A stretch of 64,000 nucleotides of DNA from a virus. Position numbers and translations under genes: made by a program. Location of the stretch: positions 1 to 64,000 of IMG/VR virus record IMGVR_UViG_3300043788_000114. The stretch is one strand, 5' to 3'. The stretch's first letter is position 1. Each line of letters begins with the position of its first letter. The notes beneath the pieces are model-generated. The model ran no database searches, was not told the origin of the DNA, and saw only the letters and a list, made by a program, of their open reading frames with translations. Shown here one piece after another: positions 18,142 to 39,158 of this stretch.

Positions 18142-19386
18142 GTGGCGTTCGGCAACATGATCCAAGAGATGCTCGGTGTCCCCGGCATGAACCGGGGCCT
18201 CGCGGCGACGCGGATCAATGAGGCCTTTACCAAGATACAAAATGAGAACGTCTGGTCGTTCCAGTGCCAGACTGGTGGGTGGCTGACGGCAAATCTTCTG
18301 GGTGGGCCAACGACACAGAGTTCATTTCTCAGCCCCGGCACGATCACGGTCAACCCATTCTCGACGACGATCACAGCGGACCCAGTAGCCACGCTGTGGT
18401 GGACGATGCCGGTCCCATATCCTCCCTTCCTGACGCAGCAGCAAATCCGCGTGCCTCTGTACTCCCTCTACTCGATCATCGCGCTCGGGAATAACGGGAC
18501 GGTAGCCTACGCGACGCTATTGACTGCGGGCTCCGGCCAGACACCGGGAACATATACGGTCCCTGTGATAGATAACGGAGGACCCGGAGCAGGAGCAACC
18601 GTTTCGATAACAGTAAACGCGGATGGTACGGTAACACTTCCTCCGATTGTCACGAATCCGGGAAGCGGATATGTGGCACCGGGGATCAACTTCGCAGAGG
18701 GAGGTATTCCTGCGACGTTTTCTGTAACTCTGATTGCGACCGCGACAATTGACAGGCCATGGATGGAGCCACCGCAGGTAAACGCGAACTACGCTATCTA
18801 CCAAGCGTATTATCCGGCGCTCCCCGGATTCAAACGGTGGTTCAACATCAGGGACACGACCAACGATGAACCGATGAACTGGTACGACCTGACACAGATC
18901 GATCTATCGGAGATTGATCCGCAACGCGAGATATTCGATCAGCCCGAGTATGTGGTTCCGTTTGGAATCGACAACAGGCCGGGGAGCGCGACTCTCGGTC
19001 AGCAACTTTACGAACTATGGCCGCACCCTATTACTCAACTTCCGTATACGTTCATGTGCCAGTGTAACTGGCCGAACCTGCAAAATCCGACAGACACCGT
19101 TCCGTATCCGCTCACTGAAGAGTTGGTGAAGCAGAGAACTTATGAGATGGTCGCATTATGGAAGGAATCACAAAAGGGCGACGATCAAGAGAGAGGTTCT
19201 GGTGCAAATTGGCAGTTCTTGACTAAGGCGCACCACGAGGAATACAAGGACGATCTTAGACAGATTCGAATAATGGATCGTCACCTTATAGAGTTGTATT
19301 TCACTAAGGCCCGAATGAGTGTTCCGTTCAATGCAGGCGAGCCGTTCACGAATACCAACGGAACTGCCAATGTGGGTTATTGGTAA
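18142..19386 (+). CDS. Head-tail connector or adaptor-like protein with inserted beta module
   Basis: A 414-residue protein with a GTG start at 18142; AGGAG precedes it by 8 bases. The N-terminus is helical (MIQEMLGVPGM onward). Residues about 125-190 form a Gly-rich beta insert ending in NPGSGYVAPGINF, similar to the module in the protein at 16497. The C-terminal half is a helical adaptor-like region (TEELVKQRTYEMVALWK, then a long charged helix). Position suggests a tail-completion or gatekeeper protein; this is inference. Confidence 0.6.
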   Translation: MAFGNMIQEMLGVPGMNRGLAATRINEAFTKIQNENVWSFQCQTGGWLTANLLGGPTTQSSFLSPGTITVNPFSTTITADPVATLWWTMPVPYPPFLTQQQIRVPLYSLYSIIALGNNGTVAYATLLTAGSGQTPGTYTVPVIDNGGPGAGATVSITVNADGTVTLPPIVTNPGSGYVAPGINFAEGGIPATFSVTLIATATIDRPWMEPPQVNANYAIYQAYYPALPGFKRWFNIRDTTNDEPMNWYDLTQIDLSEIDPQREIFDQPEYVVPFGIDNRPGSATLGQQLYELWPHPITQLPYTFMCQCNWPNLQNPTDTVPYPLTEELVKQRTYEMVALWKESQKGDDQERGSGANWQFLTKAHHEEYKDDLRQIRIMDRHLIELYFTKARMSVPFNAGEPFTNTNGTANVGYW

Positions 19387-19398
19387 CAAGGAGGATTC

Positions 19399-19800
19399 AT
19401 GCCAGCATATCCCGGTCCCGGACTAGCAGAACTACTGAGAGTCAATCGTCAGGCGTACATGTGGGAGAACGAGGTTCCTCCCGCTGGATTGTATCCCGGC
19501 TCTCTCAGTGTCGCTTATCTTTTGGAGCGCCTCGACTACGCTTCTTATCCGTGGGGTGCTTCCTTTGAGGCATGGTTCTCCGCAGACCCCGGCGCGTTTG
19601 AGATCGACATTGTAGGGGCCAACATCGATCAGCCTCAGAATTACATTCAACTCGGTACGATTACATCGGCGCAAAGTTATGTCCCCGGATTTTTTGTTGG
19701 ACGATGGGACATGCCTTCCAATATCTGGGTAAAGTACGTTGCATCGTACATAGTATCCCTGACAAACGCAGTGGACGTTAAGCTCATGGTGACACGGTAA
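19399..19800 (+). CDS. Small virion protein
   Basis: A 133-residue protein with GGAGGATTC before the ATG. It is beta-rich and aromatic (YPWGASFEAWFSADPGAFEI), a character common in connector and tail proteins. The stop overlaps the next ATG by one base. No family recognised. Confidence 0.6.
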   Translation: MPAYPGPGLAELLRVNRQAYMWENEVPPAGLYPGSLSVAYLLERLDYASYPWGASFEAWFSADPGAFEIDIVGANIDQPQNYIQLGTITSAQSYVPGFFVGRWDMPSNIWVKYVASYIVSLTNAVDVKLMVTR

Positions 19801-21281
19801 TGAAGAACATTTTTGCGGTTATGGTCCTCGCTTTCGCTTCATTGGCTTTTGCTCAAGGGAATCCTCCGCCAGTTGCTTCCTACATACTCAGTGGCGGAAA
19901 ATTTGTTCCCGCCCCGACCACTGCTAGTCTCGGAGCGATTTCCTATAATCCTCCACCAGCGGCCCTCTACTGCTTCAATTCATCGACGAAGAAATGGGTT
20001 CCTGCTGACTCTTCGTGCTTCGGCGGAGGAGGCGGCGGTGGGGTAACGTGGCCTACATCCGGGGATGTCGTTGTCAGTAATGGAACGAATTCGCCAAGTG
20101 GACTAGCACCGGTCAACGGCGATTGCGTTGTGGGAGCCGGAGGAGTATGGACAGTAGGAGGATGCGGCTCCGGCATCAGCGGAGGGACATCCGGTCAGGT
20201 TGCGGTGTTTGGTTCTGCTTCGACAATAACAAGTGGGATTCCTGTTGGTAGCACTGGAAATGACATTCTTCAATTGACTGGAGGACTCATTGCAGCATCA
20301 GTAATTCCAACACCGACAGGCTCAAGCCTTGGAGGAGTCGAATCCAGCAGTGGCGCGACGCACACTTTCGCCAACGCAATGCTTTCGAGTGGGACACTTC
20401 AATATGCCCAACCAGCCTTTACTGACATCAGCGGCAATCTTGGGACTGGGCAAGGACCGACCGCGATAACCAATATACTGTATGACAATGCCGGTACTTT
20501 GCAGGCAGCTACCGGTTCGGAGGTCAACACACTCATCCAAGGGCTCACCGGATGTAACACGGCGAGCAACGTATACACTCCGCAGAGCGGGACATGTGTA
20601 GCCCCGTCTGGAGGAACCAGCGTTACCGCAGCGCCGCCCTACGTCGAGATCGGATCGACCTTTTACGACCACGATTTTTATGCGGTAACCAAACCGGTCG
20701 GTTTTTCCAGCGGGTGCACGTTTAGTTCATCCTTCACATGGCTGAATAGCGTTACGCCGACTACCTGTACAAATGGGACAAACGGCAACGTTCTTATTCA
20801 GACTACTTCCGCTATTGTCGCGTGGGCGAGCGAGTCAGGATCGTCGAGTGTGGAGTGTGTGTTTAATGCAACGAGCAATATGGATTCAGGATTCGTGGGC
20901 TCTGGATGCTGGATTTACGACTCAACCAATGGGAAGATTTACGTTTTGGAGCCGGAGGTAGACGGAACTGGAATCGGATCGTACCAGATGTATCTTGCGA
21001 TCTACACCTGCACGTCACCTTGCACATCGGCGAATCCTTCGTTTAGCTCGAACGCTCTTACGGCCCTTCCGGGAGCGTATGGATTTGGATCGAACGCGCA
21101 TCTTAAATTGTCAGTGGCTTCTACGACTCTTACCGCAGCGATATGCCTCGATGGTGGGGCGAGCGCTTGCAGCCCGCTTATCACTGAGTCGGTCGGAACG
21201 ATCACCAAAGGCGGCTACATGATCAATGGCGCGTCGAGTGTAACGCTTACCGATGACATCATGAGCATCCTCGTCCAATGA
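19800..21281 (+). CDS. Fibre-like protein with N-terminal Sec signal peptide
   Basis: A 493-residue protein. The start MKNIFAVMVLAFASLAFAQ is a textbook Sec signal with an AFA cleavage site. A Gly-rich hinge (about 75-81) and a repeat module (GISGGTSGQVAVFGSAS) also used twice in the next protein follow. The C-terminal half is a Cys-containing, beta-rich domain, possibly a lectin-like receptor-binding part. Tail fibres are normally cytoplasmic before assembly, so a signal peptide is odd; several Cys pairs fit folding in the periplasm. The alternative is a lysogenic-conversion surface protein. Confidence 0.7.
   Translation: MKNIFAVMVLAFASLAFAQGNPPPVASYILSGGKFVPAPTTASLGAISYNPPPAALYCFNSSTKKWVPADSSCFGGGGGGGVTWPTSGDVVVSNGTNSPSGLAPVNGDCVVGAGGVWTVGGCGSGISGGTSGQVAVFGSASTITSGIPVGSTGNDILQLTGGLIAASVIPTPTGSSLGGVESSSGATHTFANAMLSSGTLQYAQPAFTDISGNLGTGQGPTAITNILYDNAGTLQAATGSEVNTLIQGLTGCNTASNVYTPQSGTCVAPSGGTSVTAAPPYVEIGSTFYDHDFYAVTKPVGFSSGCTFSSSFTWLNSVTPTTCTNGTNGNVLIQTTSAIVAWASESGSSSVECVFNATSNMDSGFVGSGCWIYDSTNGKIYVLEPEVDGTGIGSYQMYLAIYTCTSPCTSANPSFSSNALTALPGAYGFGSNAHLKLSVASTTLTAAICLDGGASACSPLITESVGTITKGGYMINGASSVTLTDDIMSILVQ
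20172..20300 (+). repeat. Fibre module repeat, copy 1
   Basis: Encodes a module of about 43 residues beginning GISGGTSGQVAVFGSAS and ending in LTGGLIAASV. Copies 2 and 3 are in the next gene. Protein-level identity is high, while the DNA has diverged, so these are old duplications. Confidence 0.65.
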
Positions 21282-24200
21282 AACTACGCCATGCCATCCC
21301 GTTATTTATTATGGTCGTGATCACCGGACGTGTGTCTGCTCAGACATCAGCGTTCAATGGTTTCTGCTACCAAGGAGGAATTCAGTCTCAGACATCAGGA
21401 TTGCCGTCGTCGAATTTTCTGCTAGGCGTCATCCCGAATTGCACCGTAACGGTATACCTGACCGGCACGACCACGAAAGCTACGATCTATGCGGACGCTT
21501 TAAGCACACATCTCTCGAATCCGTTTAAGGCGAAGATCATCGGTTCGACGGGAGCGGGACAGTGGCTCTTCTATGCTCCGAATGGTCAGACATACGACGT
21601 TGTGATGAGCGGCGGCAATTCTCCTCTCACATATCCATCCCCTGTAACACTCACGGGACTTGGCGGCGGATCGGGAGGCGGCGGAAGCGGGCCTCTAATT
21701 CAGACAAACGGCACGAACAACGTTCTCCAAACGCTGCTCAATTTCCAGAACACGGCAACAGTAAATTTCTCAAATCCGAGCGGAGGAATCGAACAGGCTT
21801 TTTGCAACACCACCAGCGGCGTGGGATCGCTCGGATGCTTCTTCATTCCTCTCACTGGTACCGGGGCTCCTTCGGCATCATGCTCGATCTCGAACGCAAG
21901 CCAGAATTACTATGACATTAACCCCGGAGTCACAAGTCCAACAGTATACATTTGCAAACTTGTCGGATCGTCTTATGCGTGGCAAGCAATTGCCACGGGA
22001 AGCATGGTCTATCCGGGCGCTGGAGTTCCGCTGTCAACAGGTTCAGCTTGGGGAACAAGTTACGCGGTACAAGGAACCGATTCCAAGCTGTTATCGTCTG
22101 GAATAGTTTCCGGAATAGCGGGTGCCTTACTTTGCCTCGACGGGGCAGGCGGTGCTTCGACAGGCGGATGCACCGTGCTAGTTCCAGTCTTTCAACATAA
22201 TGGAACTAACCTTGTCAATCAATCCACGATAAACTTTAATGACACTACGCCAGCACCTCCAGCCGGGTTCACAAACGTCACCTTCCAGACAAATTCTGGA
22301 GGCGCGATCTCTGCTTACGTCCCTACGCAGAACGGTTTTCAGATGCAACAAATCCCGCCACAGTCGGGTCAGTATGTGATCGTTTATGCTACCGCGAGCG
22401 CTAATAGCACCATTGGAGTTTCCGATGCCAACTCATCGAATGTATGGGGCATATTAAGCACTGGGCCACTAGGACTTGGGGGTAACGGAGAAGCAAGCAT
22501 CGTATGGAGCGGATTCACGCTTCCAAGTTATGTTAACCCAGCAAATGTCACTTCCGTATGGGCATCAGCAACATCTGAAAGCGGACCAAATCCACCCGGT
22601 TCCGGAACTTGCTTAGGCGGACCAATCGAAACTAGTACCGATTACAGCTTGTCAATCGCTGCGACAGGAACAGGAATCGGAACTTTCAACCTGATCCCCG
22701 GTGGAGGTGGATCGGTAAAAGGAAATGCGCTAGGCACAACTACAGATGAACTTACCGGGATGACAGGGGCAAATGTCCCATCGATCACAGTAAACGGTAC
22801 TTTACAAGCATCGGGGACATGCGTAGGTTCAAACTACGCTAATATCCCCCAAGTTCTTCTATACGTTTACTACACCGGAACAGCACCTCCAGCGGATAAC
22901 AATGTGATGGTGCAGCCGCCACTACAGTTCGCTGACAACACTCTCAGCATCAGTTCTCAAGCGCATTTTCCGGGAACGTCTTTGGTACCGACGACGATAA
23001 ACGCGCTACCTGATGCGGAGACATCTACCGATTGGTTAGTTCCAATCACAAACGGTGTAAGCTCGACAGATTGTACGACTGGCGGCGGATCGCACTACGT
23101 TATTTGCCAAAGCAATGGTTCATCTTGGTCATCGTATAACGTTTCTGGTGCTGTCTCGTCCGTCTCAAATTCAGATAGTAGCCTCACCTTTTCCCCAACG
23201 ACAGGTGCAGTAGTTGGCTCTCTCAATGTTGCCCACTCAAACACTTGGACAGCAACGCAAACGATGAGTGGACTTGTGCTCAGCGGGATCACCGGCTCTA
23301 CGCAATGCCTTCAGGTGAACTCTGGAGGAACGGTTTCAGGAACAGGATCGGCTTGCGGATCGGGAAGCTCAGGAATTAGCGGTGGAGTGTCAGGTCAGGT
23401 GGCGATATTCGGGTCGGCCACGACCATCACCAGCGGCATTGCGCTTGGCACAACCGGCAGCGACATCCCACAACTAAGCGGTGGACTCCTCAACAATTCA
23501 GTGGTCAATTGGGCGGCTCCGGGTGCCATCGGCAGCGGTACGCCGAATACAGGGTCATTCACGACGCTCGCAGCGAGCAGCACAGTCACATTTCCGGGAA
23601 TCGAAGGCGCGGGTACATATTGCGTTCAAGTGAGCGCCACAGGCGTGTTGAGCAACACCGGAGCGGCCTGCGGGTCAGGGAGCGGAGCAGTCAATTCAGT
23701 TTCAAATTCGGACAGCACATTGGTTTTCTCTCCGACAACCGGCGCTGTAGTGGGTTCCCTGAATCTTGCCAACGCGAATGCGTGGACAGCGCTTCAGACT
23801 TTTGGAACTCATATTTCGATTGGCGGAGTCACAGCAACCGGTGCGACGGGAACAGGCAATGTCGTCTTCTCGGCATCGCCGACACTCACTGGAACCTTGA
23901 TTGCCGCCAATATGAATACGAGCGGTACAGTGACAATGACCGGCATCGAGGCAGCAAGCTCAACGTCGTGCTTGCAAATCAGCACGTCGGGTTCGGTCAC
24001 AAACACGGGTACGGCCTGCGGAGCGGGCGGAAGCGGTCTTTCTGGAGTCAACAAGCAGACGAGCAGCTACACAGCAGTATCCGGAGACAACAACAAAGCT
24101 ATTCCATTCGATTGTTCGTCTACTTGTTCCCTCACATTGCCAACGTCGGTTCCAGCCGCTCCATGGACGGTATTCGCGATGGATTGGGGAGTGACAACAA

Positions 24201-26260
24201 TCTCGATTATACCGACAAGTGGGGCGCACCTCTACGCAGTGAGCGGCGCTGATCTAGGTACCGGAACTCTTAATCCGGGAATGGGGTTATCGATCTGGTC
24301 GGATGGAATCAATTACTTCATCAATCAGGGGGGGATTGTCACCGGTAGCAATGTGGTTCCGGAGTACGTTCAGTCACTATACAATAATAATCCGACGCCT
24401 CCTACAACCATCACTTACACAACGGATGTATCTCCGGGAAGTGCTTTGGTATTTGAGGGATACCATTCTTCTAGCAGTGTAACGGCAACAATTACTGACA
24501 ATCAAGGAGACACATTCAATCTATACAATTACCAGCAGGTAAGTGGTGAGTTTGACTTGAGACAATGGGTAGCCTGCAACGCCAAGGGTGGACCAACTAC
24601 CATTACAACTTCGCTCGCATTCTCTGTTCTATTTGCTTATGAATTTTCTAACGTAGCATCATCTTCGTGCGTCGATGGAAATAATTCAGCGCAAGGGAGT
24701 AACGTCGCATCACTTGGAACAGGATCAGTAACAACCACCGATCCATTCGATCTGATATTTGTTTCTGGAGCAGGTAGAGCTATAAATAGGACGTACACTG
24801 AAGCCAACGGGTACACGGATATACTGACTCTTCCATATTTCGCCAGTGCTCTGAATTATCAGGCGTGGTATGGAATTCAGCCATCAACCGGTTCACTTTC
24901 TGATACGGTTACCTACTTCACATCCGCTGATCCGGGAGGATACTACGCAGGAATTCTCGCTCTCAAGCCAGCGGCAAATACGAATGCTATTATCGAAGGC
25001 GATTTGATCGCAGCGCAACCGAATGGTTCACTTGGAGCCTTGCACGCTGGAGTAGATGGATACGTTCTAACGTCGAACGGTCCCGGAACTATTCCGACTT
25101 ACCAAGCGCCGTCCGGAAGTGGAACAGTGGTACCGTCATCTAGATACGACGCCCCATATTATTCAGCCACGGGTTCCGGAAGTACGCTAACGGGGGTTGC
25201 GATCAACGGGTTCCAATACGATTCGACCTCTGGGGTACCTGCCGCTGCCACTGCTTCTCAGGCCGCTACACTGATTCAGGGTCTTTCTGGGTGCTCTACG
25301 TCAGGATTCGTATTTACGCCAGCAGGAAGCGATTGCATAAATGTCAGCGCGATTAGCGGTGGAGTTTCAGGGGAAGTAGCTCTATTCGGGTCTGCGACCA
25401 CAATCACGAGCGGCGTCCAGTTGGGTACAACAGGCAGCGATATTCCGCAACTTAGCGGCGGTCTACTGGCTACATCGATTCTTCCGAAAGCAACTGCGAG
25501 TGCGTTCGGAGCAGTCGAGGGTGATGGATCAACGATCACTCTTGCCTCCGGTGTCATCAGTTGCACCACGGCAACGACATCGCAGGTAGGTTGCGTAAAG
25601 CCAGATGGCACGACCATAGCGATCACTGGAGGAGTGATCAGCGTCATCTCTCCGGGACTTGGCCTGCCAACGAAGTCATATACATCAAGCCAAACCGCGT
25701 CAAGCGCAGACAATAATTACGAAGTGGTAATGAATTGCAACTCCTGCAATTACACCCTGCCTGCGACTCAGCCATCAACGCAGTGGACAATTGGTTTGCA
25801 ATTCCGTGGCACCGGAGACGCACTGGTTCTGGCTTCAGGGGCCAGCTACAACTCGAATACCAATTCTCCGCAGGTGTACGAAGACCAACTTATCTCAATC
25901 ACTGCCAACCAGCAGACGACAACAGACTACATCGGTCCTAATCTTCTGGCGTCCAGCGCGCCGACGTATACGGCAGGAGCGAGCGTTACTTCTTGCGGTC
26001 AGGCCTCTGGATACACCAACACGAATGATCGCGGTGAAGTAACGATTGTCGGTGGATCGGCCACAACCGGAACGATCTGCACGGTAAACTTCTCGTCTAC
26101 ACTCAACTACGCGCCGGGACTTTGCACGGTTAATCAAAATGGTGGAACCACATTATTCAGTATCGGACATGGAACCGCAAGCACTACCAGCTTCACGATT
26201 ACTGCTGGAATATCCGTTATATCGTCGACTGTTAATGTGGACTACAGGTGTTCGCCTTGA
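21278..26260 (+). CDS. Giant modular fibre/adhesin-like protein with Sec signal peptide
   Basis: A 1660-residue protein, start overlapping the previous stop by four bases. MKLRHAIPLFIMVVITGRVSAQ is a Sec signal with cleavage after SA. Next is an Ig-like domain ending in Tyr/Pro-rich strands, a Gly linker (about 125-135), then a long series of beta modules. These include two copies of VSNSDS...FSPTTGAVVGSLN (near 630 and 810) and two of a GISGGVSG(Q/E)VA(I/L)FGSATTITSG module. It ends with a domain of shape CNYTLPATQPSTQWT. Composition is Gly/Ser/Thr-rich with few charges, as in phage fibres and surface adhesins. Confidence 0.72.
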   Translation: MKLRHAIPLFIMVVITGRVSAQTSAFNGFCYQGGIQSQTSGLPSSNFLLGVIPNCTVTVYLTGTTTKATIYADALSTHLSNPFKAKIIGSTGAGQWLFYAPNGQTYDVVMSGGNSPLTYPSPVTLTGLGGGSGGGGSGPLIQTNGTNNVLQTLLNFQNTATVNFSNPSGGIEQAFCNTTSGVGSLGCFFIPLTGTGAPSASCSISNASQNYYDINPGVTSPTVYICKLVGSSYAWQAIATGSMVYPGAGVPLSTGSAWGTSYAVQGTDSKLLSSGIVSGIAGALLCLDGAGGASTGGCTVLVPVFQHNGTNLVNQSTINFNDTTPAPPAGFTNVTFQTNSGGAISAYVPTQNGFQMQQIPPQSGQYVIVYATASANSTIGVSDANSSNVWGILSTGPLGLGGNGEASIVWSGFTLPSYVNPANVTSVWASATSESGPNPPGSGTCLGGPIETSTDYSLSIAATGTGIGTFNLIPGGGGSVKGNALGTTTDELTGMTGANVPSITVNGTLQASGTCVGSNYANIPQVLLYVYYTGTAPPADNNVMVQPPLQFADNTLSISSQAHFPGTSLVPTTINALPDAETSTDWLVPITNGVSSTDCTTGGGSHYVICQSNGSSWSSYNVSGAVSSVSNSDSSLTFSPTTGAVVGSLNVAHSNTWTATQTMSGLVLSGITGSTQCLQVNSGGTVSGTGSACGSGSSGISGGVSGQVAIFGSATTITSGIALGTTGSDIPQLSGGLLNNSVVNWAAPGAIGSGTPNTGSFTTLAASSTVTFPGIEGAGTYCVQVSATGVLSNTGAACGSGSGAVNSVSNSDSTLVFSPTTGAVVGSLNLANANAWTALQTFGTHISIGGVTATGATGTGNVVFSASPTLTGTLIAANMNTSGTVTMTGIEAASSTSCLQISTSGSVTNTGTACGAGGSGLSGVNKQTSSYTAVSGDNNKAIPFDCSSTCSLTLPTSVPAAPWTVFAMDWGVTTISIIPTSGAHLYAVSGADLGTGTLNPGMGLSIWSDGINYFINQGGIVTGSNVVPEYVQSLYNNNPTPPTTITYTTDVSPGSALVFEGYHSSSSVTATITDNQGDTFNLYNYQQVSGEFDLRQWVACNAKGGPTTITTSLAFSVLFAYEFSNVASSSCVDGNNSAQGSNVASLGTGSVTTTDPFDLIFVSGAGRAINRTYTEANGYTDILTLPYFASALNYQAWYGIQPSTGSLSDTVTYFTSADPGGYYAGILALKPAANTNAIIEGDLIAAQPNGSLGALHAGVDGYVLTSNGPGTIPTYQAPSGSGTVVPSSRYDAPYYSATGSGSTLTGVAINGFQYDSTSGVPAAATASQAATLIQGLSGCSTSGFVFTPAGSDCINVSAISGGVSGEVALFGSATTITSGVQLGTTGSDIPQLSGGLLATSILPKATASAFGAVEGDGSTITLASGVISCTTATTSQVGCVKPDGTTIAITGGVISVISPGLGLPTKSYTSSQTASSADNNYEVVMNCNSCNYTLPATQPSTQWTIGLQFRGTGDALVLASGASYNSNTNSPQVYEDQLISITANQQTTTDYIGPNLLASSAPTYTAGASVTSCGQASGYTNTNDRGEVTIVGGSATTGTICTVNFSSTLNYAPGLCTVNQNGGTTLFSIGHGTASTTSFTITAGISVISSTVNVDYRCSP
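23372..23505 (+). repeat. Fibre module repeat, copy 2
   Basis: Encodes GISGGVSGQVAIFGSATT onward, ending in QLSGGLLNNSV. Same module as at 20172 and 25348. Confidence 0.65.
25348..25482 (+). repeat. Fibre module repeat, copy 3
   Basis: Encodes AISGGVSGEVALFGSATT onward, ending in QLSGGLLATSI. It is preceded, as in copy 1, by a TLIQGL(T/S)GC segment, so a larger unit was duplicated. Confidence 0.65.
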
Positions 26261-26270
26261 GGGGGAAGTG

Positions 26271-28397
26271 ATGAAGTTGCGCTTTTTCATACCACTCATT
26301 ATCGCGTTCCAGATAATGGCGCAGTCTCCGTCTGCGTTTCTCGATTCGTCGCGTTACACGACGGCATGGCCGAGCGCGGGATTCTCGGTGCCTTCGTACA
26401 CGGTTCCCTGCGCGACACAGCCGTCGCTGACTGCTGGATCGGGAGCCGCGTCAGCCAACGCTACATCGATCCAGAACGCAATGGCGTCCTGCAATTCGAC
26501 GCACAATGTGGTCAACATTCCTGCCGGAACATGGTACGTGACGGCGCTTAGCACCTACACGCTATCGGCTCCGGGAAAGATGGTGATTCGTGGCGCGAGT
26601 GCTTCGACGAGCGATCTGATCTTCACGGCGGGGACGGGATGCACCGGGGGACTGACTACGGGAATTTGCTTTAAGGACACCCTAGGCCTCTACAACTGCT
26701 CGCAGCAGGTCATCCCATCCGGCAACGCGGCACCGTGTCTTGGCGGAGGATCGGGGAGCGGTGCGAATATGTGCAACTGGACAGCCGGATATTCGCAAGG
26801 CACAACTTCGATCACGCTTAATGGCTGCGGGTCGGCTCCGCCGGTAAACCAGACAATCATCCTCGATCAGGCCAACGACACAAGCGATACGTCCGGCGTC
26901 TACATCTGCGACACGAACATTGCGAACTGCGGGTATGAAAGTTCATCGGGTGGAAACAACAATGGGCGCTTTTTTAGCGGAGCTACGAGGTCTCAGCAGC
27001 AAGTGGCCTATGTGACTGCGGTGAGCGGTTCCGGGTCAGGACCGTACACCGTTACAATCTCTCCGGGTGTCTACTTCACGAACATCAGGTCAGGCCAATC
27101 GCCCGGAGCGTGGTGGCCGGGATTCGTTCAAAATCTTGGCATCGAAAATATCACCCTCGATGGATCGAATCTTTCAGGAGGAGCGACTGTCGGTTTCTAC
27201 GACTGCTACCAGTGTTGGGTGAAAGGCGTCCGCTCTCTGAATGCGGGAAGGAATCACGTCATGCCTTACCAGAGCGGTTTCGATGTGGTCCGTGACAGCT
27301 ATTTTTATCAATCTCAGTCTCATGCCTCGCAGAGTTATGTGGTTGAGGATGAGGAAGCATCTGGGATACTGGTCGAGAACAACATTTTCCAGCAAGTGAC
27401 CAATCCCACGATGTTCGGGCAGTGCTCTGGCTGCGTGACCGACTACAACTTCAGCGTGAACAATCCCTATACCGGGGCGGATTCGTGGATGGCTGGATCG
27501 TACTCCGTCCACAATGCTGGCAATGAGATGAATCTGTTTGAGGGGAACAACTTCAACGGCATCTGGGCCGATGACGCATGGGGATCGAGCGACCAGACGA
27601 CCTATTTCAGAAACATGCTCATCGGCTGGCAGGCGTGCAGTTGGAACACGGGTGGAGGAGTTACTTGCAGCCCAACAGGAGAATCGAATGCGACGTTTCC
27701 TGTGATGATGCGCGCCAATGACCGCGTATTCAATATGGTTGGGAATGTGCTCGGACAGCCGGGGTACCACAATCAATATCAGACCTATGCAACCTCAACG
27801 ACGGCTGGAACCGGGGCAGCGAACGAGAATACGAGTATCTACACGCTCGGATGGGGAGGTACAGGACCGGTCTGTTCGTCGGGATCGGTGACGAACTGCG
27901 ACCCGCTGAGCTTTTCTACCTTGATGCGGTGGGGAAACTGGGATGTGGTTAACGGTGCTACGCAGTGGAACGCAACCGAAGCGAGTCCGGGGGCTGTAAC
28001 TTACGTCAATGCCAACTTCACGTCGAGCTATTTCACAAGCCTTGCCCACACCCTTCCGAGTTCTCTGATTTATTCTTCTGCTCCGTCGTGGTGGGGATCG
28101 GGAAACTGGCCCGCTATCGGCCCTGACGTGACGGCAGGGAACGTGGGAATCTGCGCGAGCGGCACGTATCAGAACTCGCAGGCGTCTAGTGCGGGGCAAT
28201 GCGGTAGCGGGAGCCTGACTACTTCGTATGCATCTCACGTCTCTGCGATTCCGGCTCAACTCTGCTACTTGAATACGATGAATGGACCGCCGGATGGGTC
28301 CGGTTCCGTGCTAACGTTTAATGCAGCCACATGCTATTCGTTTTCATCGACGACACCCGGATCACCGCTAAATCTTTTAGGAACCGTATCGCCATAG
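26271..28397 (+). CDS. Right-handed beta-helix tailspike or surface lyase-like protein with Sec signal
   Basis: A 708-residue protein; ATG at 26271 after GGGGGAAG. The N-terminus (MKLRFFIPLIIAFQIMAQ) is a Sec signal, and MKLR is shared with two neighbours. Residues about 55-130 have the start typical of pectate-lyase-like beta-helix proteins (index residues, then VVNIPAGTWYV and MVIRGASAST). A long parallel-helix region follows, with stacked Asn and turns (ENITLDGSNLSGG, VVRDSYFYQSQSHAS, VENNIFQQV). It is Cys-rich (for example YDCYQCW, FGQCSGCVTDY), which suits export. A polysaccharide-binding or -cleaving role is likely but no catalytic set can be named. Confidence 0.78.
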   Translation: MKLRFFIPLIIAFQIMAQSPSAFLDSSRYTTAWPSAGFSVPSYTVPCATQPSLTAGSGAASANATSIQNAMASCNSTHNVVNIPAGTWYVTALSTYTLSAPGKMVIRGASASTSDLIFTAGTGCTGGLTTGICFKDTLGLYNCSQQVIPSGNAAPCLGGGSGSGANMCNWTAGYSQGTTSITLNGCGSAPPVNQTIILDQANDTSDTSGVYICDTNIANCGYESSSGGNNNGRFFSGATRSQQQVAYVTAVSGSGSGPYTVTISPGVYFTNIRSGQSPGAWWPGFVQNLGIENITLDGSNLSGGATVGFYDCYQCWVKGVRSLNAGRNHVMPYQSGFDVVRDSYFYQSQSHASQSYVVEDEEASGILVENNIFQQVTNPTMFGQCSGCVTDYNFSVNNPYTGADSWMAGSYSVHNAGNEMNLFEGNNFNGIWADDAWGSSDQTTYFRNMLIGWQACSWNTGGGVTCSPTGESNATFPVMMRANDRVFNMVGNVLGQPGYHNQYQTYATSTTAGTGAANENTSIYTLGWGGTGPVCSSGSVTNCDPLSFSTLMRWGNWDVVNGATQWNATEASPGAVTYVNANFTSSYFTSLAHTLPSSLIYSSAPSWWGSGNWPAIGPDVTAGNVGICASGTYQNSQASSAGQCGSGSLTTSYASHVSAIPAQLCYLNTMNGPPDGSGSVLTFNAATCYSFSSTTPGSPLNLLGTVSP

Positions 28398-28409
28398 GAG
28401 GCAACAATC

Positions 28410-28928
28410 ATGAAGTTAAGAAACATCGCTCTCGCTCTCTCGCTGTTCGCGCTTTCGCTGACCGCAGGCTGTCAAGTCCCGCAACCTTCACCGCAGCCAA
28501 CCGTGAGTCTCACTTGCACGCCATCGAAGGACGCAACTTCGAGCTATCTGTACGTGTTTGCCCGTGCATCCTGCACTAGCGCAACATCGTGCCCAGCCAA
28601 CACAGCAGGGAATACGGCCTACTCGGCGATCAACCCATCTGGCAGCGCGACGTGCTCCATTACGGACACAGCCCCGCTAAGTGGATTCGTTACCTATACG
28701 GTCAGTGAGGTGAATGCCGGAGTGACCGGCCAGCCGTCTGGACAGGTCAATAGCGGCGTTCCGCTGAGCGTTCCGTCATACCCCGGAACTCCCGGAAGCC
28801 TGAATGGGACGCAAACTGCTGCTCTCGCGCCGCCACTCAAGCCAGACGGAAAAACATTGCCGCAGATTGCGTCCAATAAGATTGGGACAGCAACCGGACT
28901 AAAGGCAAAGGTAAACCCCGGTTTTTAA
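28410..28928 (+). CDS. Putative lipoprotein
   Basis: A 172-residue protein, ATG at 28410, GGAGG nine bases ahead. The N-terminus MKLRNIALALSLFALSLTAGC ends in a lipobox (LTAGC), so the mature protein should be lipid-anchored at Cys21. A Pro-rich linker and one Ig-like beta domain follow (VSLTCTPSK to VTYTVSEVNAG). It is the fourth consecutive gene with an export signal. It could be a surface or superinfection-exclusion protein. Confidence 0.72.
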   Translation: MKLRNIALALSLFALSLTAGCQVPQPSPQPTVSLTCTPSKDATSSYLYVFARASCTSATSCPANTAGNTAYSAINPSGSATCSITDTAPLSGFVTYTVSEVNAGVTGQPSGQVNSGVPLSVPSYPGTPGSLNGTQTAALAPPLKPDGKTLPQIASNKIGTATGLKAKVNPGF

Positions 28929-28975
28929 TCGCAAGATTGTAATGGGCGCGGTAAAACGCTGATCCGATCAGAAAG

Positions 28976-29437
28976 ATGTGGACGGAGGGACAATTGGGAC
29001 TCGAAAGCGAAGCGGCAGCGTTTACGCGTACTGACAAGAAAAATCTGGACAAACTTGTTCAGGATATGTGGATTGGGCAAGATGTAAACAACCCATCAGT
29101 CACGACACGCCTCAAAATTCTTGAGGAGGATCGAGACAAAGTGATTACTGTCCACGTAGCACTTTTCGGCGACGAAGACCACGATGGCTTCATCGTGAAG
29201 TTCGAGCGCGCGTTGGGAATCTTTCGTGGGGGAATGTGGGCGCTGACTATTGTCGGGATCGTATTCATGGCAGTTTTTGGATACGCTTTAACATTGATCG
29301 TTCCGGCAGCAAAGCTAGTCATCGATGACTATTATTCCCATCATCCCGCCGCGCGCCAAAGTATGATTGTGCCGTATACAAATGCGCAGGATGCGGGCGC
29401 ACCACCACAGAACCAACAGTACGAAAACAGAAGGTGA
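28976..29437 (+). CDS. Membrane protein with one predicted span
   Basis: A 153-residue protein, ATG at 28976 after AGAAAG. The first 85 residues are soluble and charged, then there is one strong membrane span (WALTIVGIVFMAVFGYALTL, about 98-117) and a short Pro/Gln-rich tail. It starts the membrane/lysis block. Function unknown; a holin accessory is possible. Confidence 0.65.
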   Translation: MWTEGQLGLESEAAAFTRTDKKNLDKLVQDMWIGQDVNNPSVTTRLKILEEDRDKVITVHVALFGDEDHDGFIVKFERALGIFRGGMWALTIVGIVFMAVFGYALTLIVPAAKLVIDDYYSHHPAARQSMIVPYTNAQDAGAPPQNQQYENRR

Positions 29438-29441
29438 ATAA

Positions 29442-29636
29442 ATGCCAGACCATCCTAATGGACCCAATCCCAATCCCAGCGGCCCTGATCCAACAGGCTG
29501 CGGCGGAACAGGCCAGCACGCCTGCAATCCGGAACCATCTATCGTCATCGACGGCGTGAAGTATTGGACCGAGGAACAGATGACGGCACAGTCCAAGATG
29601 AACTATGCCAAGGGCCGTGCGGAGGCAACGGCGTAA
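29442..29636 (+). CDS. Small Pro/Gly/Asn-rich protein
   Basis: A 64-residue protein starting 5 bases after the previous stop, with AAGGTGA upstream. The first 30 residues are Pro/Asn/Gly with two Cys; the rest is a short charged helix. No family recognised. Confidence 0.55.
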   Translation: MPDHPNGPNPNPSGPDPTGCGGTGQHACNPEPSIVIDGVKYWTEEQMTAQSKMNYAKGRAEATA

Positions 29637-29645
29637 CCCCTTCCC

Positions 29646-30017: not shown

Positions 30018-30025
30018 AAGAAATA

Positions 30026-30051: not shown

Positions 30052-30065
30052 AAACTGGAGGGACT

Positions 30066-30275: not shown

Positions 30276-30290
30276 CGGCGAAAGGCTGAA

Positions 30291-31064: not shown

Positions 31065-31073
31065 GGGAGCACT

Positions 31074-31607: not shown

Positions 31608-31620
31608 TTCTAGGTGGTCG

Positions 31621-31923
31621 ATGATCCGCATCGACATGTTCGACGGTGCGCAGCCAAAACGCGGCGATTTGGTGCAGACCAACTGCGGGAATCGCCGCGA
31701 GCGCACGTGGTTCGTCATTCATGCGCGCAGAGTGAAACGGCGAGAAGATTCCGTCCCGCGTTACGAATTACACATCGTCCGCTGGTACGACATCGATCCT
31801 GAGATGCGGGTCAGGCTTTTCCAGAGCGCCGAGCGCCGTGGCGGACAGCGAGTGATCACCTTCAAGCGGTATCCGGCCAAGCGCAAGGCGAGAACCTTCG
31901 AGCAGTACATGGGAGCGCGATAG
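31621..31923 (+). CDS. Small basic hypothetical protein
   Basis: A 100-residue Arg-rich protein, ATG at 31621 with AGGTGG upstream. It has alternating strands (RGDLVQTN, WFVIHARRVKRR, YELHIVRWYDI) and no Cys motif. The stop overlaps the next GTG start by one base. Confidence 0.6.
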   Translation: MIRIDMFDGAQPKRGDLVQTNCGNRRERTWFVIHARRVKRREDSVPRYELHIVRWYDIDPEMRVRLFQSAERRGGQRVITFKRYPAKRKARTFEQYMGAR

Positions 31924-32348
31924 TGCAGATCAGCCCTAATGGAATCGCCTTCATTGAAGCAAACGAGGGATTTTCTGCGACCGTTTACAACGATACTGCG
32001 GGGAACGCCACCATCGGCTATGGGCATAAACTGGAAGTTGGAGAGTCTTTCCCTAATCCCATTACACAAGAAGAGGCTCAGCAACTTCTCCTTGGCGATC
32101 TGGCGCTTGTGGAACTCACGCTGGCTCAGTTAGTCCCTCCGAGTTGCACGCAAAGTCAGTTCGACGCTTTATGCGATTTCGGCTTCAATTTAGGCTGCGT
32201 GGCCCTCAAGACAATGCTCGGGCATGGATGGGAGTTTGTTCCTCTTCAAATTCCAAGATGGGATTTTGAAAAAGTGAATGGCGTAGAGCAACAGAGTCCA
32301 GCGCTTGAGGCTAGACGGCAGAGGGAAGTTGCTCTGTTTAATTCGTAG
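31923..32348 (+). CDS. Phage lysozyme, GH24 muramidase (endolysin)
   Basis: A 141-residue protein with a GTG start overlapping the previous stop by one base. It has the GH24 (T4/P22-type) active-site order: Glu15 (EANEGF), Asp24 (YNDTAG) and Thr30 (ATIGYGH). The later FDALCDFGFNLG helix and the WDFEKVNG segment are also typical. It cleaves the MurNAc-GlcNAc bond of peptidoglycan. There is no signal peptide, so it depends on a holin such as the candidate at 30066. Confidence 0.9.
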   Translation: MQISPNGIAFIEANEGFSATVYNDTAGNATIGYGHKLEVGESFPNPITQEEAQQLLLGDLALVELTLAQLVPPSCTQSQFDALCDFGFNLGCVALKTMLGHGWEFVPLQIPRWDFEKVNGVEQQSPALEARRQREVALFNS

Positions 32349-33642: not shown

Positions 33643-35148
33643 ATGGGAACATATTCTTGGCTTACGTTTCTCACCGCACGCCAGCAGCTTGCTGCGCGGC
33701 AGTACGACCCCAATAACCTCTTCTGGGCCGATGCCGAGAACGGAATTTCTATTCAGCAAGCGTTGAGGATGTTCAACGTTCTCACCTTCACGTGGAAAAC
33801 CAACTTTGCTTTCTCCTCCGCAAATCTGTGGAACTCGCTCGGGCTGATCGCCGACTCGCCCCGCCTCCGGACCATCACCGACACCTACTGCTACACGGAC
33901 ATGGAGTACAAGCTCCTCGAACCGCCAACCGGTGGAGTGTGGACGGGCACCACGCAGTTCTCGATCTCCGACCTCTCTCAGGCTCTCCAGCGGCGTAGGG
34001 ATGAAATGCTTCAGGTGTCGAACTGCAACCAGAGTTTGATGCCCAATATCCCGCTGACGCCGAACACGACAGTGACCAACCTTCCCGACACGGTGATCGA
34101 CGTCGCCCGGACCCGATATTTGCCATTACAGACGAGCACCACCGGAACCGCCTTGCAGGGCGTGAATGTGGTCAACGTTATATCGGTCACCGGGATCGCC
34201 ATCGGTCAACTTGTCGTCGGGAACGGAATACCTTATCCGACCACGGTCGCCGCAGTGGGAAGCGCCTCGATCACACTTTCGCAGTTGACGACCGGGCCAG
34301 TCTCGGGGTCGCTGGGATTCTTCACCGCGAGCACTCTCTACCGGGACGACACCATTGCGCAGGAATTCTACGAAGCACCGCTCTACCAGCAGGACCCCGG
34401 AACGCCGACAACTTTCAGCCTTTCGTCCGAGCCGCCCCTGTCGTGGGCCGTTGACATCCCGCCAGATCAGGCCGGGGTGTACGAATCGGTTGTGCTTCAG
34501 TCAGGAGCGGCCTTTGCGCCGCCCGCAAGCACGCTTATAGGCATCCCGGATGACTTCGCATGGGTTCTGGAGTGGGGAGCCCTTGCTGACCTGCTCGGGC
34601 GCGAATCTGAGGCCACAGACAGGGACCGTGCGGCATATTGCCTGCGCCGGTACCAAGACGGGCTCAACCTGCTCGTAAAGACGCCGTGGATCATGCTCGG
34701 CAAGGTGAATGGAGAGGCTGTCAATATCGATTCTATCGAGGCCACAGATCGCTACGATCCGGAGTGGGATTCAAACCCGAACGGTTTCGGTCCGGTGATC
34801 GTGACAGGAGGGATAGATTTCCTCGCCGCTCCGGTAGGCTCAGGAGTTGGCGTGACTGTACTGGGCAACGCCCCAGTCCCAGTTGCGGATGGCGACTTTG
34901 TGCAGGTGAGCCGCTCTGATTGGGACACCGTGCTTGATCTGGCGCAGTCGTTCAATGTTTTCAAGCAAGGCGGAGCGGAGTGGAAGGCCGCTCTTCAATT
35001 GGAGGCGAGAGCGATTCAGGCGTGCGCTGCTGAGAACACAAGAATCAAGTCGTATGGTTGCTTCTCCGACATCCTCGTCCAGCGTGGTCAGGTACAGGAA
35101 CGTAACCAAGAGCGATACAAAACTGCGAACGAGAAGAAGGCTCAGTAA
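33643..35148 (+). CDS. Virion structural protein
   Basis: A 501-residue protein starting 8 bases after the previous stop; no strong ribosome site. A helical N-terminus (LTARQQLAARQY) is followed by a beta insert around 180-230 with alternating Val/Thr, and a helical C-terminal region ending in a charged tail. Its size, lack of Cys/enzymatic motifs and position next to the giant protein suggest a neck or tail component. The stop overlaps the next ATG by one base. Confidence 0.62.
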   Translation: MGTYSWLTFLTARQQLAARQYDPNNLFWADAENGISIQQALRMFNVLTFTWKTNFAFSSANLWNSLGLIADSPRLRTITDTYCYTDMEYKLLEPPTGGVWTGTTQFSISDLSQALQRRRDEMLQVSNCNQSLMPNIPLTPNTTVTNLPDTVIDVARTRYLPLQTSTTGTALQGVNVVNVISVTGIAIGQLVVGNGIPYPTTVAAVGSASITLSQLTTGPVSGSLGFFTASTLYRDDTIAQEFYEAPLYQQDPGTPTTFSLSSEPPLSWAVDIPPDQAGVYESVVLQSGAAFAPPASTLIGIPDDFAWVLEWGALADLLGRESEATDRDRAAYCLRRYQDGLNLLVKTPWIMLGKVNGEAVNIDSIEATDRYDPEWDSNPNGFGPVIVTGGIDFLAAPVGSGVGVTVLGNAPVPVADGDFVQVSRSDWDTVLDLAQSFNVFKQGGAEWKAALQLEARAIQACAAENTRIKSYGCFSDILVQRGQVQERNQERYKTANEKKAQ

Positions 35149-38100
35149 TGGCACTAAAATTCAGAGCGCTCGACATTACGTCCCCCGTCAATCGCCTAAA
35201 AGCAGGCTTTGTCGCAATGGCCTGTAATGTTCGAGCTTATTTGGATGGCGGTTTTGCTCTCCGCAATTCGCTGACCCCGCCGTTGGTTTTAACCAACGCA
35301 GCATCGAGTCAAGTTAGCGCGGGAACTACCGGGCAAACAGGAGTAGGAGCCGCGTGGAATAACCCCGCGAATATCTTCGACACAGGAAGTGTCAATTTCA
35401 CAAATCTCCTCCTCGGAGGCGGCAACCCAACAGTATCGGAAATTCTCAATGTCACCGATCTAGGATTTGCGATCCCCGGCAGCGCGACGATTACAGGAAT
35501 CCAGTTTCAACTCCAAAGCCTTCCAGCCCTTGGCCATGGCGTCGCTATTACCTTTCAGCCAACACAAAATGGGGCGAACGCTGGAACTCCGACGACTCAA
35601 ACGCTCGGTCCCGCGCCCGGTGGACCGGTAACCATCGGTGGGCCGGGTAATCTCTTTGGATTTGCGTGGACTCCGGCGTTGATCAATGGCGCGACCGGTT
35701 TAGGGCTGAATATATCCGGAGCAGGAGGAGCCGCTCATACCTCAGCGGCTTGTGAGCTAAACTCTCTCGTCGTCACAGTGTTCTACAACACGAACATGAC
35801 GCTCATTCTGCCTGCGCCGCCGCATTCAATTCGCAGATTAAACGACTCGACTCCTAACGGACCATCGTCCGGTTACGCTCTTGTCGTTGGAGCGGGAACG
35901 GACATTTATCTCAACTCGACACAAGTTGCTTCCGGACTCTCCGGCAATCAAATTTCGCTCATTCCTTTCCGCCCGAATGCTTCCGTGCAGCCGTGGATGT
36001 ACTGGGCTGATTCGGCAGCGATGGGCAACGTCACTCTGAATACTAAATACCTCATCAATGGCAAGCCGGTGAACTTCGTTTCAAACGGCATGGGCAAGAC
36101 ACGCTCCGATGGGTTGACGTACAAAATGGGAATCGAGGAACCGCAACTCGCCCCCATTATTTCCACCGCTCCATCCAGCGTATCCGTTGGTGGTTTGTTG
36201 CAGGCAACTGACATTCCATGGACCAACTATCTCGGGCAGAACCCCGGATATAACTACGGAGAGTCGAACGGTCCACCGAATCCGGGAAGTCCAAACCCGA
36301 TAGATGGAACTCCGCCGTTTATTGTCGACGTGGCCAATGCCTCCACAGTGACAGTCACGGCCATCACTGGAACCGCGACGATCAATGGTACGTCGGCAGT
36401 ACCGACGAGTCCCGGACCAACTCCGGGATCGACAAACCCCGGTGGTTACGTGCAAGTTGGAGGAGTAGTTCCGGGAACAGTTTCCGTTGTTGTTGGTGCG
36501 TTCACGGATGGAGATGGCAATGTAGTACCTCTCGGCGTAGCGCCGCTCTACATTACATCGGTCATCGATGTGGGTGGAAACATCGGAGTGGCAATTCCCG
36601 TGCCATTTGGCGCTCAGCAGTTCCAGATTGGCATCAACTCCACGGGAAACACGTTCAATGCAAACTCGGGCTCTTTCCAGATCGAAGTTACGGTGACAAC
36701 GAATGCTCTGCCAACCGTCACATCGATTCTCGGCGACCTGACTTGCGCATATTTTGACGATTCGCCAACCTCCGGTCCAGTAGCTTCGTATATCTGGAAG
36801 AATCCGGATGATCCCGGAGGCTCGGGACCAACGCGCTCTGTCTCTGATGCGGTAGGCACAACGACAGGTGACTCCTTCATCTTCGATGCCACATTCACGG
36901 CTGGAATTCCCGGACTACCGGGAATCGGCTCGCCCACTGTACCGATGCTGTGGACAGACCTCAATCCTGATTCCGTCGCCGTAGGTTCCAATCCGATCTT
37001 TGCCGCACCACTGACGAAAACAAATCCGACGAACACACAGTTCGCCAACTTCAACTTTTGTCTTACAGGGAATATCTACTTCCCGTCTGCCGGTCTATTC
37101 ACGCTCGTCCTCACGAGCCACGATGATGTGATATGGGGAATCGGCGGCGGCGTGTCGCTGGTATCTGCCGTGGCGTCCGGCGTAGGCGAGGGTGGTGGCG
37201 TGGCAATCTCTGGATATGGCCAGACGATCACCGTGGTTGGTGGTTATCCGCTCCTTCCGAGACAAATCTACACGAGCGGATTGGGAGGAAACTACGCACA
37301 GACAACGGTAGTCGTGAGCGTTCCAGCGGCAGGCATTTACCCAATCGAACTCGACTTTGACTACTGGTTTCACTCAGGAAGAATTCTTCTGCTTGAGGGA
37401 TCGGCCACTGCTGGCGGTCCGCCGACGATCATCCCGCCTCTTCCGGCGAGCGTTAGGCAGGAGACGCAATATCGGTACGTGTACAGGTCATCGGCCACAG
37501 GAGCATTGTCGAATCCATCTCCGGAGTCAGCAGCCGAGACGGTGCCTGTCACGGCGAACACTGTCACGTCTTACTGGTCGCCCGATCCGCAGGTAGATGT
37601 TGTTGACTACTACCGCATCGATTCAGTGACATCGGATTTCACTTACGTCGCCACAGGACCTAACGACAATCTTGGACCGGGAGGAACGAATACACCGATC
37701 ACCGATTCCTTGCTGGACACTGAACTAGGATCGCAACTTCTAGAATTCGACAACTTCGAGCCATTCCCATCCATTGATCTTCCACAGAAGGGAATCTGTA
37801 ACGTCTCTGGCGGTGTCATCACATGGGTATCGGGCGGAGCTATCGGCGGAGCGTTTACAGGATTCAATATCCGCTGGCTGGGTGGAACAGTCATCCTCAT
37901 CGGCTCCCCTACGTCTCTTGCATATACACTGATCGCGCGACCAACATCGACGACGACGATCACGATTCCCGATGTTCCGGATGGAACGAATCTGGCTTAC
38001 GAGATTCCCGAACCAATTCTAGCCGCACAACCATTACCTTATGTTGACGGGCCTACGGACAATATCCCGTTTGCAAATGCAGTTGGCGATCCACTAAGAG

Positions 38101-39158
38101 GAGGAACTTTTTATTGGTCGAAGGGAAATAACCTAGACTCCGCTCCGGATACGAATCAGCAAGACATCACCGATCCGTCCGAAACTCTGAATAACTTGGC
38201 GATCACCACAGGCAAGGTGCTCTTGGGATCGATTAAGCGTTTCTGGGCCATCTTGCCCAACTTCTTCAATGCTCTGGCAACAGCTACCGGAACTTCAGGA
38301 TCAACATGGAGCACAAGGCTCACTTCAATCGACCGTGGCCTCTTTATCCCACGCTGCATCTGCGTCTCGGGCGGTGGAGGCGTGTTCTTCCGTGTCGATG
38401 ATGGGATTCATTACTCGCCATCAGGCATCTCGTCAAAGTCGATAACCGATGAAACGCTCTATCCGTTATTCCCGCATGAATCGCCCGGAGCAGGCGCTTC
38501 TTCCCCGCAGCCAATCACACGCAATGGAATCACAATCTATCCTCCAGACGATACGAAGCCGCAGCTACAGAAGATGGCATTCCAGAACGGGTATATGTAT
38601 TTTAAATATTCCGGAACGGACGGCAATCCTCACACGCTGGTATTCGATGAAGCTGCAATGGGATGGATATGGGACATAAAAAATCCGGAAGCGACATGCT
38701 ATGCGGCTAATGAGGGAGAAAGCATTCAAGGTACTCTAGTAGGATGTTTTGACGGATCGGTAAGACTTCTTTCGAGTGCTGGAACTGAGGTAGTGACGGG
38801 CACGGCTCTCACTGCCGCCATCGGCGGCGTGGGATGGAATCACATGTACGAGATCACCATCGAGTACGAATCCAAAGCAGCAGTGACATTGAGCTTCATC
38901 GCCGCCGATGTGAATAATGGAAGCTACGCCCCAAATCCTATTGTGCTTCCAGCAACAGCCGGTGGTCCGACGAAGTTCACCACGAAAGTGACTGCGAATA
39001 AGTGGCAACTACTACAGGCACAATTCCAGTCTGCCGATCCAGCGATGGCCATCTACCTAGAGGGTGTTTTCGGCAACGTAAAGGATTGGGGAACGACGGC
39101 AGGATACAGGCCGGTGAATTTCTTCATCCCTGCGGGAGGGGCCGGAGGTCAGCCATGA
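35148..39158 (+). CDS. Giant virion protein with PA14-like domain
   Basis: A 1336-residue protein. The start (FRALDITSPVNRLKAGF) is followed by beta-sandwich domains. A PA14-like domain is visible at about 610-760: an N-terminal strand region, then GLFTLVLTSHDDVIWGIGGG, and PIELDFDYWFHSGRILLL. Fibronectin-like strands (RYVYRSSATGALSNPSPESA) come next, and a C-terminal propeller-like region (FVFDGS-type repeats such as VGCFDGSVRLL). PA14 domains bind carbohydrates, so host-surface binding by a tail nozzle or fibre is plausible. The stop overlaps the next start by four bases. Confidence 0.7.
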   Translation: MALKFRALDITSPVNRLKAGFVAMACNVRAYLDGGFALRNSLTPPLVLTNAASSQVSAGTTGQTGVGAAWNNPANIFDTGSVNFTNLLLGGGNPTVSEILNVTDLGFAIPGSATITGIQFQLQSLPALGHGVAITFQPTQNGANAGTPTTQTLGPAPGGPVTIGGPGNLFGFAWTPALINGATGLGLNISGAGGAAHTSAACELNSLVVTVFYNTNMTLILPAPPHSIRRLNDSTPNGPSSGYALVVGAGTDIYLNSTQVASGLSGNQISLIPFRPNASVQPWMYWADSAAMGNVTLNTKYLINGKPVNFVSNGMGKTRSDGLTYKMGIEEPQLAPIISTAPSSVSVGGLLQATDIPWTNYLGQNPGYNYGESNGPPNPGSPNPIDGTPPFIVDVANASTVTVTAITGTATINGTSAVPTSPGPTPGSTNPGGYVQVGGVVPGTVSVVVGAFTDGDGNVVPLGVAPLYITSVIDVGGNIGVAIPVPFGAQQFQIGINSTGNTFNANSGSFQIEVTVTTNALPTVTSILGDLTCAYFDDSPTSGPVASYIWKNPDDPGGSGPTRSVSDAVGTTTGDSFIFDATFTAGIPGLPGIGSPTVPMLWTDLNPDSVAVGSNPIFAAPLTKTNPTNTQFANFNFCLTGNIYFPSAGLFTLVLTSHDDVIWGIGGGVSLVSAVASGVGEGGGVAISGYGQTITVVGGYPLLPRQIYTSGLGGNYAQTTVVVSVPAAGIYPIELDFDYWFHSGRILLLEGSATAGGPPTIIPPLPASVRQETQYRYVYRSSATGALSNPSPESAAETVPVTANTVTSYWSPDPQVDVVDYYRIDSVTSDFTYVATGPNDNLGPGGTNTPITDSLLDTELGSQLLEFDNFEPFPSIDLPQKGICNVSGGVITWVSGGAIGGAFTGFNIRWLGGTVILIGSPTSLAYTLIARPTSTTTITIPDVPDGTNLAYEIPEPILAAQPLPYVDGPTDNIPFANAVGDPLRGGTFYWSKGNNLDSAPDTNQQDITDPSETLNNLAITTGKVLLGSIKRFWAILPNFFNALATATGTSGSTWSTRLTSIDRGLFIPRCICVSGGGGVFFRVDDGIHYSPSGISSKSITDETLYPLFPHESPGAGASSPQPITRNGITIYPPDDTKPQLQKMAFQNGYMYFKYSGTDGNPHTLVFDEAAMGWIWDIKNPEATCYAANEGESIQGTLVGCFDGSVRLLSSAGTEVVTGTALTAAIGGVGWNHMYEITIEYESKAAVTLSFIAADVNNGSYAPNPIVLPATAGGPTKFTTKVTANKWQLLQAQFQSADPAMAIYLEGVFGNVKDWGTTAGYRPVNFFIPAGGAGGQP

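Follow-up and report, generated by a model that had tools for sequence, protein, structure and literature searches.

Predicted Sec signals on consecutive fiber and spike genes of an uncultured podovirus suggest tail components that may pass through the periplasm

Why would a phage send its tail fibers out of the compartment in which its virions are built? Tailed phages are taught to assemble entirely in the host cytoplasm, and the question is raised by a cassette of four consecutive genes in the soil-phage record IMGVR_UViG_3300043788_000114, of which we analyzed the first 64 kb (hereafter, the window; the whole record is 138,516 bases long). A preliminary description, made from the DNA letters alone, had noticed that these genes, starting at 19800, 21278, 26271, and 28410, all begin with export signals, and had proposed either that their products are displayed on the host or that the spikes of this phage fold in the periplasm. 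Judged from sequence, the cassette is very probably exported by Sec: the signals are kept in relatives, DNA similarity breaks at the cleavage site, and a Cys pair accompanies the signal. Of the two proposals, periplasm-folded spikes are favored for the fibers, given a tailspike docking domain, the place of the genes in the tail module, and the failure to see any signal-less fiber elsewhere in the record, while host display may still apply, chiefly to a 708-amino-acid (aa) spike with relatives in Terriglobia and to a 172-aa lipoprotein.

The four genes lie head to tail on the + strand, at the coordinates first described (Table 1). Using a rule of our own (a positive n-region, a 10-residue uncharged hydrophobic core, and a cleavage motif), we found n-, h-, and c-regions followed by a signal peptidase I (SPase I) or lipobox site in the cassette proteins, i.e., Sec-type signals, three SPase I-like and one with a lipobox. 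Although the reading frame of the 708-aa spike stays open as far back as 26139, GAGGGGGAA stands upstream of the ATG at 26271. The expectation that all mature parts are fibers or spikes suits the large proteins, but not the 28410 product, which is a small Cys-rich lipoprotein. The 493-aa protein (Cys 2.8%; Gly/Ser/Thr/Asn 44%) shares repeats with the 1660-aa fiber, itself large and rich in Gly/Ser/Thr/Asn. Searches of the four proteins against Pfam found no family, and in PHROGs the 1660-aa fiber alone gave a significant match, a partial one to a virion structural protein. The start MKLR, noted for three of the genes, is common to them at the protein level, but the codons differ and relatives start with MKK, MKR, or MRR; these differing codons and the loss in relatives rule out MKLR as a common tag.

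Are the signals real? The rule fires on 12 of 178 annotated coding sequences of the phages Tunturi 3 and Tunturi 4 (about 7%), and four positives in a row would arise with a chance of about 2e-5 per position; the run is therefore not accidental. Dozens of related phages, presumed to infect Acidobacteriota, keep the signals, as can be seen for the N-terminal domain of the 1660-aa fiber, which is directly preceded by a signal in 30 of 36 viral loci, a fraction biased by a few near-duplicate loci and by a search pattern derived from signal-bearing sequences. A second N-terminal family, taken from phage L002, has signals in 5/5 loci, and the members of the 708-aa spike family on viral contigs nearly always carry one (the signal-less exception is L064).

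How the signals vary is equally informative. The spike gene shares a block with the otherwise unrelated phage L002, the sole DNA similarity found between L002 and window positions 19000–33000. This block begins at spike codon 16, two codons before the predicted IMA/Q cleavage, and ends near the gene end; the signal DNA is 57% identical between the two phages (29/51 positions), with different lengths, and both encode good signals. When the lipoprotein gene is compared with that of L006, a near-identical phage, the signals differ while the lipobox is kept, and DNA similarity resumes at codon 22, directly after the lipobox Cys. Under differing signals, therefore, the mature parts have been transferred or retained, and each time a signal is present. 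The charged n-region, the c-region, and the A/Q site are maintained across highly divergent signal sequences, and by these patterns of sequence conservation the signals of the cassette are under selection.

The Cys-rich mature parts, also remarked on in the preliminary description, stand out from their surroundings, with 2.0–3.3% Cys in the four proteins versus 0–1.0% across 15 further virion genes in the window (P = 0.0014). The N-terminal domain of the 1660-aa fiber contains a Cys pair; 26 of 30 signal-bearing copies have it, as against none of five signal-less ones (Fisher P = 0.0004, with the kinship of the sequences ignored), and in three of the four losses among signal-bearing domains both Cys disappeared jointly. 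L026, a member of the Tunturi 1 lineage with homologous terminase, portal, capsid, and nozzle, has in the same slot a fiber lacking both signal and Cys, and the two genes that follow are still signal-bearing. The Cys pattern fits an oxidizing compartment for the cassette proteins, in which disulfides would form. In L026, a signal-bearing fiber gene at 12146–16234 appears to be broken up over several frames, possibly through a frameshift or an assembly error.

What would such exported proteins do? The mature N-terminal domain of the 1660-aa fiber, searched as a profile against the PDB, matches only tailspike chains: hidden Markov model (HMM) matches were obtained to Pan3 (9vyg, E = 1.7e-6; also 9vyh) and to the head-binding domain of Pam1 (7eeq, E = 4.6e-4). 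Its AlphaFold model (AF2; predicted local distance difference test score (pLDDT) 79.7), compared with the PDB by Foldseek, has Pan3 and Pam1 tailspikes as its four best matches (probability 0.96–1.00; template modeling (TM) score 0.4–0.5), and in BFVD it matches the N-termini of many phage proteins of the pectate-lyase, tail-fiber, tail-spike, and exopolysaccharide (EPS)-depolymerase types. Cleavage by signal peptidase would thus leave at the N-terminus the part with which tailspikes of this kind bind the tail. Among relatives of this fiber, the N-terminus is conserved and the C-terminal remainder divergent. A search of Terriglobia genomes with the domain gave mostly short, weak matches in long open reading frames (ORFs).

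The genomic place of the cassette points the same way. Its slot, after a gp11-like tail protein and before the endolysin and nozzle genes, is seen in many relatives (about 30 phages). Tunturi 1 has five signal-bearing genes there (gp12, gp13, gp14, gp16, and gp17), with gp14 annotated as a tail spike and gp17 as a virion structural protein, and in Tunturi 4, an unrelated siphovirus, two more (gp113 and gp114) lie beside the tail-fiber genes. The endolysin at 31923 has no signal; export is therefore selective. The fiber and spike genes are replaced between the window phage and L006, which is otherwise near-identical to it (95–99% in 33643/35148). Receptor-binding proteins typically show such features: a conserved N-terminus with a divergent remainder, a place in the tail module, and gene replacement. 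Elsewhere in the 138.5-kb record, which is perhaps incomplete, no further large, Gly/Ser/Thr/Asn-rich fiber-like gene was seen, with or without a signal. A gp17-type, Cys-rich, signal-bearing protein is common (about 50%) to an unrelated podovirus and siphovirus (L014 35018–37324; L009 19474–23028), with signal-bearing homologues also in L030 and L031; in L002, an ATP-grasp-like gene (2901–4187) lies directly 5' of a signal-bearing fiber cassette.

The 708-aa spike has a different set of relatives. Its closest non-viral ones are signal-bearing Terriglobia proteins, with matches in 23 of 250 Terriglobia genomes and signals present in those checked; two of them (L007 and L008) have polysaccharide genes on either side, including glycosyltransferase, Wzx-type, and Wzy-type genes. 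An EPS-directed activity is likely, because these homologues lie in polysaccharide clusters in an arrangement like that of WceF, a Pantoea protein discussed below, and the spike may act either on the virion or as a secreted helper. Its AF2 model is poor (mean pLDDT 36), and its beta-helix fold is putative; a few relatives have Pfam beta-helix or pectate-lyase matches, a profile search of the PDB gave nothing credible, and tblastn against INPHARED gave no match.

We propose that positions 19800–28397 would form a receptor- and EPS-binding fiber/spike module of an Acidobacteriota-infecting podovirus of the Tunturi 1 lineage. Unlike ordinary tailspikes, its fibers and spikes would be synthesized as preproteins, exported by the host Sec machinery, and trimmed by SPase I, the mature N-terminus of the 1660-aa fiber being the presumed virion-docking domain. 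The spikes would fold and acquire disulfides in the periplasm, while spike-free virions would be built in the cytoplasm; mature spikes would then dock on the tails once the two compartments are mixed through the action of holin and endolysin and the rupture of the envelope, at lysis or after it. The lipoprotein would stay in the envelope, where it may serve in exclusion or in the handling of spikes. Finished tailspikes of phage P22 attach to tail-less particles in vitro, so docking after lysis is chemically plausible. We lean slightly toward the scheme as a whole, i.e., export followed by docking onto the virion at or after lysis. That at least the docking-domain fibers are virion spikes is distinctly more probable, while we regard the prospect of a tailed-phage lineage finishing its virions outside the cytoplasm, with assembly split between two compartments, as evenly poised.

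Several observations weigh against this proposal. The signals were called by our own simple rule instead of SignalP, and the fold match of the N-terminal domain has modest TM scores (0.4–0.6). The docking domain is found on the 1660-aa protein only and not on the 493-aa or 708-aa proteins, the latter resembling secreted host proteins. WceF retains a tailspike head domain yet is not on a virion (PMC7949094), and because of this the docking domain alone is no proof of virion assembly. The text of the Tunturi paper reports no virion proteomics (PMC11924767). Finally, the fibers of Tunturi 3, a phage of the same host strain, are all signal-less, so the host does not require export; as a general rule for Acidobacteriota phages, export is thereby ruled out, and from the genes compared here, predicted export of fiber and spike genes is recurrent, not obligatory.

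The most serious alternative, possible though clearly less probable than the proposed scheme, is that the products are exported and never reach virions, being secreted soluble beta-helix enzymes or adhesins together with an envelope lipoprotein; they could then trim EPS, aid release or spread, or block superinfection. The 708-aa protein without a docking domain, with signal-bearing Terriglobia homologues of which two sit in Wzx/Wzy EPS clusters, suits this explanation, as do the precedent of WceF, a signal-bearing tailspike-like hydrolase of an EPS cluster (PMC7949094), and the lipoprotein in the same operon, since phage lipoproteins (e.g., Cor) block superinfection (PMC4936722). However, the 1660-aa fiber and its homologues begin with a tailspike docking domain and sit in the tail module, a phage with none of these proteins on its virion would have no visible fiber, and fiber/spike genes that differ between the window phage and near-identical L006 are typical of receptor-binding genes. 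A mixed cassette, with docking-domain fibers on the virion and the 708-aa spike and 172-aa lipoprotein exported as helper or exclusion proteins, would account for the docking domain being confined to the 1660-aa protein and for a spike that is similar to host proteins and travels between unrelated phages on its own. We consider it unlikely: in L006 and L061 the 708-aa spike domain is part of a longer fiber-like protein, which fits a virion role.

Two further explanations do away with export. Hydrophobic N-termini might be retained as a virion plug or tether, or translation might begin downstream, given in-frame start codons near the end of some signals and signal-less homologues, such as that of L026, in the same slot. 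Such a reading is very improbable, however, as the n-region charge, the c-region, and the A/Q site are kept, the cleavage site is where DNA identity breaks off, and the Cys pair tracks the signal. Even less credible is chance or mis-annotation of hydrophobic starts; the rule does give about 7% positives on ordinary phage genes, but here there are four in a row, with five in Tunturi 1 and signals in 30/36 homologues.

The phage background comes from genes elsewhere in the window, which encodes a terminase (1766), a portal-like protein (8906), and a major head protein (15145). Homologues of Tunturi 1 terminase, portal, capsid, gp11-like, endolysin, gp30-like, and gp31-like proteins are all found there, so that protein similarity makes a larger podovirus of this lineage the best reading of the window phage. 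Tunturi 1 is a cultured podovirus of Tunturiibacter psychrotolerans, of the Acidobacteriota (PMC11924767), and the window phage probably has an Acidobacteriota host as well. The head-gene region is interrupted at 11065–11865 by a homing-endonuclease-like gene (PHROG matches) and at 14229–15140 by an ORF of LAGLIDADG-like appearance. In the internal-virion-protein region, a 927-aa protein (45994–48777) has an RNA-ligase PHROG match over residues 412–508 (E = 7.8e-11). Other export-like starts occur outside the cassette: a 177-aa protein in the lysis region (31074–31607), kept in L006, begins with a twin-arginine translocation (Tat)-like stretch and lipobox (MNRRMFLKMSSGAAVAVVILPTTGC) and appears to be a further phage lipoprotein; an in-frame start within ORF 5677, at about 5746–6456, has the look of a Tat signal (MNRRSLFKFFGIGVATAVVAPN), and a similar Tat-like start is present in Tunturi 3 (L011 42137–42649).

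Table 1. Features of the cassette and its neighbors, in window coordinates; a slash marks a predicted cleavage site.
Feature	Coordinates	Strand	Basis or detail
Signal-less head-tail/tail protein, upstream neighbor of the cassette	18142..19386	+	Homologue of Tunturi 1 gp11
493-aa fiber-like protein with Sec signal MKNIFAVMVLAFASLAFA/Q	19800..21281	+	Signal 19800-19853, cleavage FA/QG
1660-aa fiber with Sec signal MKLRHAIPLFIMVVITGRVSA/Q	21278..26260	+	N-terminal domain common to 36 viral loci
Predicted signal peptide of the 1660-aa fiber	21278..21340	+	Cleavage VSA/Q
Mature N-terminal domain of the 1660-aa fiber, homologue of the head-binding (docking) domain of podophage tailspikes, conserved Cys30/Cys55 pair	21341..21688	+	HMM, AF2, Foldseek
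708-aa spike, putative beta-helix type, with Sec signal MKLRFFIPLIIAFQIMA/Q	26271..28397	+	Signal 26271-26321, cleavage IMA/Q
Block common to the spike gene and otherwise unrelated phage L002	26316..28324	+	94.8% DNA identity
172-aa Cys-rich lipoprotein, signal MKLRNIALALSLFALSLTAG/C, lipobox LTAG/C	28410..28928	+	Sequence
Signal-less endolysin, 3' of the cassette	31923..32348	+	Homology to the endolysin of Tunturi 1
Signal-less tail proteins, 501 aa (gp30 homologue) and 1336 aa, nozzle-like (gp31 homologue)	33643..39158	+	Cys 0.7-1.0%

How do these genes compare with known systems? In the open-access papers searched, we found no description of Sec-exported tail fibers or spikes, only of endolysins, lipoproteins, Lom, and spanins, and provisionally regard Sec-exported tailspikes as new. 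The phage proteins that make the same use of host Sec, i.e., the exported endolysins fOg44 Lys44 and P1 Lyz (PMC6116005), lipoproteins of the Cor/Llp type, and lambda Lom, are lysis or exclusion proteins, whereas those of the window are fibers and spikes. If true, Sec export of spikes would mean two-compartment assembly and a route to disulfide-stabilized spikes, and would open a period during which mature spikes, free in the medium or the periplasm, might attack EPS, block receptors, or be picked up by other phages. The annotation of uncultured soil phages is also concerned, because genes of this kind may be taken for secreted proteins of host origin.

Like the window proteins, WceF of Pantoea stewartii combines an export signal with a tailspike-like architecture and a link to host EPS (PMC7949094). 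It differs in being encoded by the bacterium, in its Tat signal, and in its proposed role in EPS modification (PMC7949094); WceF belongs to a host EPS cluster, whereas the window comes from a virus record of 138.5 kb that encodes terminase, portal, and capsid. The L007 and L008 proteins of Terriglobia align with almost the whole 708-aa spike at 32–34% identity and likewise have a Sec signal and many Cys, but are chromosomal and lie beside Wzx, Wzy, and glycosyltransferase genes. Among phages, Tunturi 1, 2, and 4 resemble the window in that successive tail genes bear signals of this type, which the description found for them does not mention (PMC11924767), and these cultured phages make the question directly testable. 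A further parallel is with podophage tailspikes: those of Pam1, Pan3, and P22 (gp9) have, as here, a large, variable C-terminal part and a place in the tail module, and in the cyanophage Pam1 (7eeq) and the cyanopodophage Pan3 (9vyg/9vyh) the homologous docking domain corresponds to that at the mature N-terminus of the 1660-aa fiber. In the matched solved chains this domain stands at or near the N-terminus, whereas here it is preceded by a Sec signal and, in most copies, contains a Cys pair.
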